Of a DNA stretch of 64,000 bases, positions 657-58,270 are shown piece after piece. The stretch spans positions 1 to 64,000 of the forward strand of contig AUJT01000021.1 in assembly GCA_000424365.1 (NCBI GenBank), in the 5' to 3' direction. Within the stretch, counting starts at the first letter, position 1. The number at the start of each line of letters is the position of its first letter. The notes under the pieces were generated by a model. That model did no database searches. It saw only the letters and a list, made by a program, of their open reading frames with translations, and had not been told where the DNA came from. This DNA comes from Lachnospiraceae bacterium NK4A144. Lineage in GTDB: Bacteria; Bacillota; Clostridia; Lachnospirales; Lachnospiraceae. The translations under genes and the position numbers were made by a program.

Positions 657-3239
657 ATGAATATTAGCAAATTTACACAGAATTCCATGAATGCGATCAA
701 TAATTGTGAAAAAATAGCAATGGATTATGGAAATCAGGTAATAGAGGAAGAGCATCTTCTTTATTCACTTCTTACCATAGACGATTCTCTGATACTTAAG
801 CTTGTTGAAAAGATGGGGATTGATAAACCAAGTTTTATAAGTAGGGTAAAACAGGGACTTGAAAAACTGGTAAAGGTAAGTGGTGGCGATCTGCATGTGG
901 GCAGAGATTTAAATAAAGTCCTGACATATGCTGAAGATGAAGCCAAAGGAATGGGTGATGAATACGTTTCTGTAGAGCATCTATTTCTTGTGATGATCAA
1001 GTATCCTGATAAAGAAGTAAAGGAAATATTTAGGGAATATGGTATAACAAGAGAAAGATTTCTTTCTGCATTAGCAACTGTACGAGGTAATCAGCGAGTT
1101 ACAAGTGATAATCCGGAGGCTACTTATGATACGCTTGAGAAGTATGGAATAAACCTGGTTGTAAGAGCGAGAGAACAGAAACTTGATCCTGTTATTGGAC
1201 GTGACAGTGAGATTAGGAATATGATCCTTATCCTGTCAAGGAAGACGAAGAACAATCCGGTTCTTATTGGTGAACCAGGTGTTGGTAAGACTGCGGTTGT
1301 TGAGGGACTTGCACAGAGAATAGTTGCAGGTGATGTACCTGATAGCTTAAAGGATAAGGAAATTTTTTCTCTTGATATGGGAGCTCTGGTTGCTGGAGCA
1401 AAATACAGAGGTGAATTTGAAGAACGGCTAAAGGCTGTATTAAATGAAGTAAAAAAGTCAGAGGGAAAACTCATATTATTTATTGATGAGTTACATACAA
1501 TTGTCGGAGCCGGTAAAACTGAGGGAAGCATGGATGCAGGAAATATGTTGAAACCCATGCTGGCTCGTGGAGAGCTTCATTGTATAGGAGCGACTACACT
1601 TGACGAATATCGAAAATATATAGAAAAAGACAAGGCTTTGGAGAGAAGATTTCAGCCGGTTATGGTTGAGGAACCTACGGTAGAAGATACGATTTCTATT
1701 CTTAGAGGTTTAAAAGAAAGTTATGAAGTTTACCATGGTGTAAAAATCTCTGATTCTGCATTAGTAGCTGCGGCAATGCTGTCTCATAGGTATATATCTG
1801 ACAGATTTCTTCCGGATAAGGCAATAGACCTGGTTGACGAAGCGTGTGCTTCGATAAAAACCGAATTGAATAGTATGCCTACTGAATTAGATGAAATGAA
1901 CCGTAAACTGATTCAGATGAGAATAGAAGAAAATGCATTAAAGAAAGAAGTTGATAATCAAAGTAAGGAACGTTTAGCCGAACTTCAGAAAAATATTGCA
2001 GAGATTGATGATGAATTTAAGCGTCAGAAGGCCCAGTGGGAAAATGAGAAACAGTCTGTAAATCGCTTGTCGGAGATAAGAGAACAGATAAAAGCTGTGA
2101 AAAATGAAATTGATATTGCGACAAGAAACGGAGATTATGAAAAGGTTTCCGAACTTCAGTACGGCAAACTCCCATCGCTTCAGGCAACACTTGCAAATGA
2201 AGAAAAACGTGATACACATCAAGATCTTTCGATGGTTCATGAATCAGTTACAGATGATGAGATCGCAGATATTGTTTCCAGATGGACTGGCATCCCGGTT
2301 TCAAAGCTGACAGAAGGTGAGAAAGCAAAAACATTACATCTTGATGATGCTCTTCATAAGAGAGTTGTTGGACAGGATGATGCGGTGGAACGTGTTACGG
2401 ATGCTATTATCCGCTCAAAAGCAGGGATAAAGGATCCTACAAAACCGATAGGTTCATTTTTGTTCCTGGGACCGACCGGTGTCGGAAAGACAGAACTTGC
2501 AAAAGCTCTTGCAGAAGCGCTTTTTGATGATGAGACGAATATGGTCCGGATCGACATGAGCGAATATATGGAGAAGTATTCGGTTTCCAGACTGATAGGA
2601 GCGCCTCCGGGATATGTAGGTTATGAAGAGGGCGGTCAGCTCACAGAGGCAGTGCGTCGTCATCCATACAGCGTAGTTTTGTTTGATGAAATAGAAAAAG
2701 CTCATCCGGACGTATTTAATGTACTTCTTCAGGTACTGGATGATGGACGGATAACAGATTCGCAGGGAAGAACGGTTGATTTTAAGAATACCATTCTGAT
2801 AATGACCAGTAACATTGGTTCCCAGTATTTGTTGGATGGTATTAATGAAGACGGATCCATTTCTGATGAAGCTGCTAATTCGGTTGAAGAAGAATTACGA
2901 GCTCATTTCCGTCCGGAATTTTTAAACCGTCTTGATGAGATCATAATGTTCAAGCCGTTAACAAAGGATAATATAGGTCATATTATCGATCTGATACTGG
3001 CTGATACGAATCGCAGGATCACAGAGAGAGGACTTAAAATAGAACTTACAGATCAGGCAAAAGAGTATATTGCGGAGCAGGCTTATGATCCGATATATGG
3101 CGCGAGACCTCTTAAGAGATATATGCAAAAAAATGTTGAGACTTTGTCTGCAAGAAGAATTTTGGAAGGTGATGCGGAGGAAGGAAGCATAATTAGTATA
3201 ACTGTGGGTGATACTGGGCTTATAGCACAAATACGATAA
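657..3239 (+). CDS. clpB: ATP-dependent chaperone ClpB
   Basis: ClpB is an Hsp100 AAA+ disaggregase that works with DnaK to rescue aggregated proteins in the cytoplasm. At 860 aa it has the family's usual length. The N-terminal Clp repeats cover about residues 1-145. The first Walker A, GEPGVGKT, is at 205-212. A long charged coiled-coil middle domain (about 405-530) distinguishes ClpB from ClpA/C, and the second Walker A, GPTGVGKT, starts at 605. The C-terminal D2-small domain contains GARPLKR. The ATG is preceded by AAGGAAG (641-647). It stands alone as a single-gene unit behind a CIRCE operator and TTGACA promoter, so heat-shock induction through HrcA is expected. No truncation is seen. 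Confidence 0.96.
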
Positions 3240-3297
3240 AAGCATATTAATTGAATTGTGGAAGTAGTATTAAGATGAGAAGCAATTTGTAGCATTA

Positions 3298-3327
3298 GTA
3301 AGGGTCAAAGATATTTTTGACCCTTAC
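3298..3327 (+). repeat. Short palindromic repeat (family A, terminal hairpin module only)
   Basis: This is a perfect 12-bp inverted repeat: GTAAGGGTCAAA (3298-3309) and TTTGACCCTTAC (3316-3327), followed by ATCAT. The same hairpin, with the same trailing ACATCAT, closes the larger family A element at 50781-51137. There is no T-run, so it is not a standard terminator, although it lies where a clpB terminator would be expected. Confidence 0.75.
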
Positions 3328-3339
3328 ATCATTTGAGGA

Positions 3340-34492: not shown

Positions 34493-34538
34493 ACATATAT
34501 GACAGGGTCAAAAGCGAAGCAATTCGTGTCATATATGT
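34493..34538 (+). repeat. Minimal family A element between nrdD and pyrF
   Basis: This 46-bp sequence has perfect 12-bp inverted ends: ACATATATGACA (34493-34504) and TGTCATATATGT (34527-34538). Between them stand GGGTCAAAA and GCGAAGCAATTCG, which are the left and right end sequences of the 195-bp element at 58076-58270. It therefore looks like that element with its middle removed. It has no T-run. Confidence 0.65.
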
Positions 34539-50755: not shown

Positions 50756-50780
50756 CTTTATAAAAAATTTAAGCTCGCAT

Positions 50781-51137
50781 AATTATGATGTCAGGGTCAA
50801 AAGGTCAAAATCCGATTGTGCTTGCACAAAGAGGATTGAGACCTTGGGACCCGCCAAACACGAGCATGTAGCGTTATTACGCGGAATGCGAGTGTTTTAG
50901 GATTGCGGGAATTGCGTATCAATGAAGCAATCCGTGTTACTGTTCAGATGCAACCGGAGCACTACGCTGCGGAGGTTGCGACCAAGAAAGATGAAAAGCC
51001 ATTGGATTTTGCCCATCGCCGGAGGCGATTTAATTGGCAAAATCCGTTACGTGAGCGAGCTGGAAGCGAGTGAACAGTAACCAATCCGTGACATCAGTAA
51101 GGGTTCAAAATTTACTTTTGACCCTTACATCATAATT
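50781..51137 (+). mobile_element. Family A structured element (full length, interrupted by a family B element)
   Basis: A 357-bp composite bounded by 23-bp inverted repeats (50781-50803 and 51115-51137; 22 of 23 paired). Taking out the inserted family B element and one duplicated 8-mer leaves about 203 bp. Its parts in order are: an inner end GATGTCA (50787-50793); hairpin 1 (AAGGTC 50801-50806 with GACCTT 50840-50845, inner TTGTGC-TT-GCACAA); hairpin 2 (CCCGC...AAACAC...GTGTTT...GCGGG); hairpin 3 (GGATTGC 50900-50906 with GCAATCC 50927-50933); inner end TGACATC (51089-51095); and a terminal hairpin GTAAGGGT/ACCCTTAC. It is non-coding and ends 33 nt before the cotH-family gene. Confidence 0.85.
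50936..51081 (+). mobile_element. Family B MITE-like element inserted in family A
   Basis: A 146-bp element with perfect 11-bp terminal inverted repeats (GTTACTGTTCA at 50936-50946, TGAACAGTAAC at 51071-51081). It is flanked by a perfect 8-bp direct repeat CAATCCGT (50928-50935 and 51082-51089) derived from the host element, a target-site duplication. Inside are a stem GCAACC (50950-50955)/GGTTGC (50974-50979) and a strong hairpin GGATTTTGCC/GGCAAAATCC enclosing ATCGCC/GGCGAT. It has no reading frame, so movement would need a transposase from elsewhere. Confidence 0.85.
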
Positions 51138-51169
51138 AGGTGGTTCGAGAAGAACAGATAGGTGAAATT

Positions 51170-58075: not shown

Positions 58076-58270
58076 ATATGATGACAGGGGAAAAAGTAAA
58101 AAATCCGATTGTGCTTGCACAAAAAGGATTTTTTATTTGGAACCCGCAAAACACGAGCATGTAGCGTGGTTACGCGGAATGCGAGTGTTTTAGAATTGCG
58201 AGAGCTTCATTTGAAGCGAAGCAATTCGTGTCATCAGTTGGGGACGGAAGTATTTTTGACCTCAACATAT
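58076..58270 (+). mobile_element. Family A structured element upstream of purL
   Basis: A 195-bp uninterrupted relative of the element at 50781-51137, in the same order. It has inner end GATGACA (58080-58086), hairpin 1 with the shared core GATTGTGCTTGCACAA and an A/T lower stem, and hairpin 2 (CCCGC-AAAACAC-GAGCAT with its mate). Hairpin 3 follows (GAATTGC 58193-58199 with GCAATTC 58221-58227), then inner end TGTCATC (58229-58235) and a decayed terminal hairpin GTTGGGG/CCTCAAC. Stems differ in sequence from the other copy yet stay paired. It ends 53 nt before purL. A short open frame across it is spurious. Confidence 0.85.

Follow-up and report, generated by a model that had tools for sequence, protein, structure and literature searches.

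Two long copies of one structured intergenic element lie in the window, that is, the whole stretch of 64,000 nucleotides of contig AUJT01000021.1 from Lachnospiraceae bacterium NK4A144, and they raise the question of what kind of element this is. The preliminary description took it for an undescribed structure, which is not the case. When the window was searched with all 4227 Rfam families, both copies matched RF01699 (Clostridiales-1), with 120.3 bits for the copy at 58079 and 114.9 bits for that at 50786, far above the gathering cut-off of 48 bits, and the model was matched over its whole length (1-166 of 166) each time. The core sequence and structure are those of the Rfam family, but its model ends short of the 3' hairpin and of the true right end of the element. 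Clostridiales-1 is named once in the main text of Weinberg et al. 2010 (PMC2864571), in Table 1 of that paper, as probably an RNA and probably not cis-regulatory, with Clostridiales and human gut as sources; its available passages make no mention of mobility. In the literature searched, no title or abstract opening describes the family as mobile. We conclude that the element very probably belongs to a MITE-like, non-autonomous family of transposable DNA elements of Lachnospiraceae, of which the Rfam Clostridiales-1 RNA is the conserved inner core. What is new here is the evidence that this known, structured family is mobile and MITE-like. The features of the copies in the window are listed in Table 1.

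Table 1. Clostridiales-1 copies in the window and their parts
Feature	Position	Strand	Basis
Left target-site duplication ATAATTA	50779..50785		Sequence; single copy at the G030 empty site; repeat of 7
Whole composite mobile element, 346 bp, TGATG...CATC	50786..51131	+	Bounded by duplications; G030 lacks it at precisely this site
Left terminal inverted repeat TGATGTCAGGGTCAAAAG	50786..50803	+	Inverted-repeat and end-repeat search
Rfam RF01699 match (core; inserted second element cuts into its 3' end)	50786..50942	+	114.9 bits
CAATCCGTG, left repeat beside inserted element B	50928..50936		Read from sequence; recurs at 51082-51090
Second small element (B) in the core, ends TTACTGTTCA / TGAACAGTAAC	50937..51081	+	Read from sequence
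CAATCCGTG, right repeat beside element B	51082..51090		Read from sequence
3' terminal hairpin GTAAGGG...CCCTTAC, beyond the Rfam model	51097..51128	+	Inverted repeat, fold
Right terminal inverted repeat (TGATGTAAGGGTCAAAAG on the - strand)	51115..51132	-	Shares its last base with the duplication
Right target-site duplication ATAATTA	51132..51138		Sequence, direct-repeat test, G030 comparison
Second copy, core (A+T subfamily)	58079..58236	+	RF01699, 120.3 bits
3' terminal hairpin of second copy, GTTGGGG...CCTCAAC	58237..58266	+	Fold
Probable remnant, 3' part of a copy	3253..3331	+	Right-end repeat 3314-3331, 1 mismatch; by eye
Probable derivative by internal deletion (5' end fused to the 3' part of the core)	34497..34534	+	End repeat, 2 mismatches; by eye

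The two long copies, which the preliminary description had placed at 50781-51137 and 58076-58270, are present there, and so are the compensatory changes that it reported between them. GATGTCA/TGACATC corresponds to GATGACA/TGTCATC, GGATTGC/GCAATCC to GAATTGC/GCAATTC, and the terminal stem GTAAGGG/CCCTTAC to GTTGGGG/CCTCAAC, where the latter pair has one G-U; hairpin 1 has an A+T stem in the second copy, and TTGTGC-TT-GCACAA is the same in both. Compared with dinucleotide shuffles, the folding of the 50786 copy has a z of -7.32 (0/100 as good) and that of the 58079 copy a z of -7.50 (0/200 as good). When 42 diverse copies were aligned by sequence alone, both sides had changed with pairing preserved in 34 of 35 pairs; 92.0% of the 1442 cells pair, and 310 cells changed on both sides. 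None of 500 shuffles, which ignore the relatedness of the copies, reached any of the five pairing measures, and the slid controls paired at most 46.6%. The conserved secondary structure of RF01699 is therefore present, and selection on structure across copies is supported, as had been claimed. The accompanying statement that this is not a random repeat, on the other hand, misses that the repeat is very probably mobile, as indicated by its inverted ends, by the duplications of its target and by the empty site in a sister genome.

The consensus ends are TGATGTCAGGGTCAAAAG at the left and CTTTTGACCCTTACATCA at the right, the right one lying beyond the Rfam model. The inverted arms of the window element measure 24 nt, including the duplication, and are 96% complementary. 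A genome search for further copies, as the preliminary description had proposed, gave 87 RF01699 matches at E <= 0.001 in the genome of the window (G000; 4.09 Mb in 68 contigs), 68 of them over the cut-off, and TGATGTCAGGGTCAAAAG is the exact start of 34 of these 68. With up to 3 mismatches, the left-end 18-mer has 137 + 138 sites in G000, compared with 1 + 0 for the reversed pattern. Of the 87 RF01699 matches, 80 were assessed for direct repeats; a 3' end could be recognised in 35 of them, and the other 45 were judged at the core's own end. Flanking direct repeats of 7-9 bp occur in 25 of the 35, whereas among mis-paired left and right flanks a repeat of at least 7 bp arose in 17 of 1190 cases. 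No clear duplication was seen in the other 10 of the 35 or in 41 of the 45, where a repeat of at least 6 bp was present in only 4, as expected of truncated or old copies. In the stretches examined, 38 pairs of ends flanked by repeats of 6 bp or more measure between 38 and 347 bp; their repeats are A+T-rich, and 22 of the 38 are exact 7-mers. The longest paired full elements have 346 bp, and one has 347 including the overlap. In G027 and G006, other ends (GATTAAAGCGCCAAAAGT...) come with 7-bp A+T-rich repeats, as judged by eye.

Recent movement can be read from the sister genomes. At the site of the 50786 copy, G030 reads GGCTCGC-ATAATTA-GGTGGTTC, with one target and no element. In G009, a composite element lies about 17 bp from this site in the opposite orientation with AAAAAAT on both sides (by eye); the empty site and this inverted neighbour indicate separate insertions in sister species. 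One identical 157-nt core is shared by 14 of the 68 over-cut-off copies, and 10 whole elements are identical. The element behaves as one that jumped recently in this genome. It has the features of a MITE, namely terminal inverted repeats, target-site duplication, small size, many mostly intergenic copies with no transposase of their own and, at the one site compared, an empty site in a relative.

The 50786 copy is itself composite. Element B, of 145 bp and flanked by two CAATCCGTG, is inserted in it, and B stands at the same place in 6 of the 87 matches of G000; 346-bp composites with flanking direct repeats are the window copy and three others. Solo matches of B were found in G030, G009 and G066. 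In these genomes B (ends GTTACTGTTCA / TGAACAGTAAC) has many copies with 81-99% identity to the window one, and it matched none of the 4227 Rfam families in the window search.

The 58079 copy, which sits between purL and an ORF of 151 codons that matches nothing in Pfam or NCBIfam, lacks a clear target duplication and is an old copy. A riboswitch or cis-regulatory RNA would be kept at the same gene across relatives, but this is not what is found at purL, the one gene compared. G009 keeps the place without hairpins 2 and 3, G030 retains the 3' part only, with the 5' part lost, and the element is absent in G066 and in seven more distant genomes (10 of 29 relatives' loci were compared). With two sisters partly deleted and absence in 8/8 others, a conserved regulator of purL is unlikely. 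As for the shorter pieces of the window, the remnant at 3253 scores only 12.9 bits (E 0.066) with model R1, and the R1 search of the window gave no match at 34497..34534.

Shorter forms seem to spread as well. Five sites carry a 75-bp form with hairpin 1 only, and at three of them it is flanked by repeats of 7 or 8 bp, so that hairpins 2 and 3 seem dispensable for spreading. Alternatively, some small forms may come from copies that were shortened where they stood, as happened to the purL copy in G009. Two ends back to back give solo palindromes of 36-39 bp, some of them flanked by direct repeats, for example at G000:C1:387614-387651, C12:46146-46183 and C1:265356-265394, and also at L197, L207 and others. 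The same ends occur in at least 98 stretches elsewhere in Lachnospiraceae, where pairs of 36-399 bp have repeats. RF01699 itself was matched in 34 of 61 genomes, 32 of the 37 of the genus (own included) and 2 of the 24 from other families of the order. The copies of G057, G052 and G010 show neither ends nor duplications of this kind, and adjacent tandem matches occur in G057 and G052; the mobility of the family may therefore vary between genomes. In G057, a complete genome of another family, five Clostridiales-1 matches lie head to tail at G057:C1:1032209-1032955, and tandem neighbours were seen in G006 as well as in G052.

A transposase with these ends was found neither in G000, where DDE_Tnp_1 (5 matches), ISL3 (6) and mutator (0) were considered, nor among the DDE_Tnp_1 transposases of 14 relatives, and the 25 largest clusters of ORFs recurring beside 362 end repeats hold nothing transposase-like by eye. 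Several candidate partners were rejected. The end pair at C11:35361-36855 encloses ordinary ORFs, with a remnant at one side only, and L268 has an unrelated 497-aa ORF between chance ends. Long end pairs also occur in L216 and L214. At two loci of relatives, L182 and L185, the end repeat stands near a transposase; at L182 the repeated IS has different ends and does not include it, and at L185 it falls beyond the stretch common to L185 and L186. The L149 transposase, presumably IS1182-like, stands beside a right-end repeat but seems to own ends ATTTGTCGGGCGACTCAT (by eye). It lies at L149 ~1290-3135, at the end of contig C15 of G000, directly beside a Clostridiales-1 right end, and the contig stops at the end of the element. 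A 9-copy IS of about 1.7 kb in G032 has other ends; 6 of its 9 copies (L158, L165, L171, L177, L178 and L181) are inside repeats of the GTTACTGTTCAC..GTGAACAGTAAC type, as if aiming at such palindromes.

We propose that a transposase acting in trans would recognise the matched inverted ends and insert the element at A+T-rich sites with duplication of about 7 bp, a step consistent with the inverted ends, direct repeats and empty site. The ends seem enough for spreading. The inner hairpins are kept by selection on active copies, as their covariation shows, and single copies decay in place, as at purL. Most inserted copies precede a gene and share its direction, so they are probably part of the leader transcript, in which the compact fold may render an insertion tolerable or alter mRNA stability.

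One point against the MITE-like reading is that the strong covariation of the inner hairpins exceeds what transposition by the ends alone would need. In several genomes the outer ends are unlike those of the window yet match each other, e.g. AATATGC..GCATATT in L095 (by eye). Ends that must match each other also covary, and so covariation of the outermost stem alone is no evidence for RNA; that of the inner hairpins is not explained by end matching. A host RNA, either a trans-acting small RNA or a cis-regulatory RNA that became multi-copy by chance, is suggested by the Rfam type sRNA, and the strong covariation, the conserved loops and the rating as probably RNA in the available passages of Weinberg et al. 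(PMC2864571) agree with it. The orientation of the copies is also in its favour. The preliminary description had all copies between genes and in the direction of the downstream gene, which overstates the case: the gene is co-directional for 44 of the 54 copies evaluated in G000 (binomial p 3e-6), and a longer ORF overlaps two copies. Between co-directional genes of G000, 29 copies lie with the genes and 8 against (p 0.0008); at 49 loci of relatives and other Lachnospiraceae the figures are 32/49 (p 0.04) and, between co-directional genes, 21 to 11 (p 0.11). These p values are rough because genes were approximated by long ORFs and the copies are related. Nevertheless, a host RNA appears improbable in view of the target duplications, the empty site and the recent separate insertions, the partial deletion of the purL copy in two sisters and its absence in the 8 other genomes compared, and the spread of forms without most of the core. 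Mobility through RNA, in which a reverse transcriptase would copy the folded RNA in the manner of a SINE, would agree with a core that retains its fold in genomes whose end sequences differ; we regard it as highly improbable, as ends-only (38-39 bp) and hairpin-1-only (75 bp) forms are present at several sites, direct repeats flank some of them, and the ends match each other as inverted repeats, like those of DNA transposons.

A further alternative concerns the core only and is compatible with a MITE-like element. The constraint may act on DNA hairpins or cruciforms, for example ones recognised in transposition or replication, or the pairing may come from templated correction of inverted repeats, with no RNA role. 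The 1442 cells contain 31 G-U pairs, scarcely more than the 28 A-C mismatches, which hints at DNA. The 25 best-paired sequences have G-U 14 and A-C 5, against this alternative, but their selection disfavours A-C; the wobble controls are too small, with 3 to 0 in 36 cells for tRNA stems and 30 to 0 for TPP, 28 of them from one conserved wobble. The direction bias points to one strand and hints at RNA. We consider a constraint on DNA alone doubtful, though a serious possibility. It is also conceivable, if on the whole unlikely, that the transposon carries in its core a functional RNA that is strand-specific, so that sense insertions in leaders would be tolerable or would switch neighbouring genes; the element would then spread a ready-made RNA regulator among Lachnospiraceae, with turnover of its ends and presumably of its transposase.

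Our results suggest that what Rfam lists as Clostridiales-1 is a transposable element and not an ordinary small RNA gene. If so, a catalogued family of noncoding RNA would be reclassified, with consequences for how small RNAs are annotated in Clostridia of the gut and rumen, and there would be a warning that covariation screens can catch mobile DNA. It would also offer a natural test of whether the inner fold of a transposon is selected as RNA or as DNA, for which many copies, core-less size variants, empty sites in sisters and the direction bias provide the material.

When compared with known systems, the element differs from REP palindromes with RAYT, which are defined by having no target-site duplication, in that it has direct repeats. 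RUP of Streptococcus pneumoniae is likewise a small intergenic MITE in multiple copies, many of which are nearly identical; according to the available parts of PMC2229807, its likely partner is IS630-Spn1 and its target TA, whereas the duplication of our element is about 7 bp and its partner putative. The same parts of PMC2229807 describe Correia/NEMIS and ERIC as bacterial MITEs of about 100-200 bp with inverted ends, target duplications and stably folding transcripts, with long and short forms of NEMIS and an orientation-dependent effect of ERIC on mRNA. Our element resembles them in size, inverted ends, target duplications, stable folds and the occurrence of long and short forms. They have other sequences and hosts and mostly one long stem, as far as these parts show, whereas our element has three hairpins within a closing stem and a 3' hairpin, duplicates about 7 bp at A+T-rich sites, and has hairpins that covary across species while its ends diverge.
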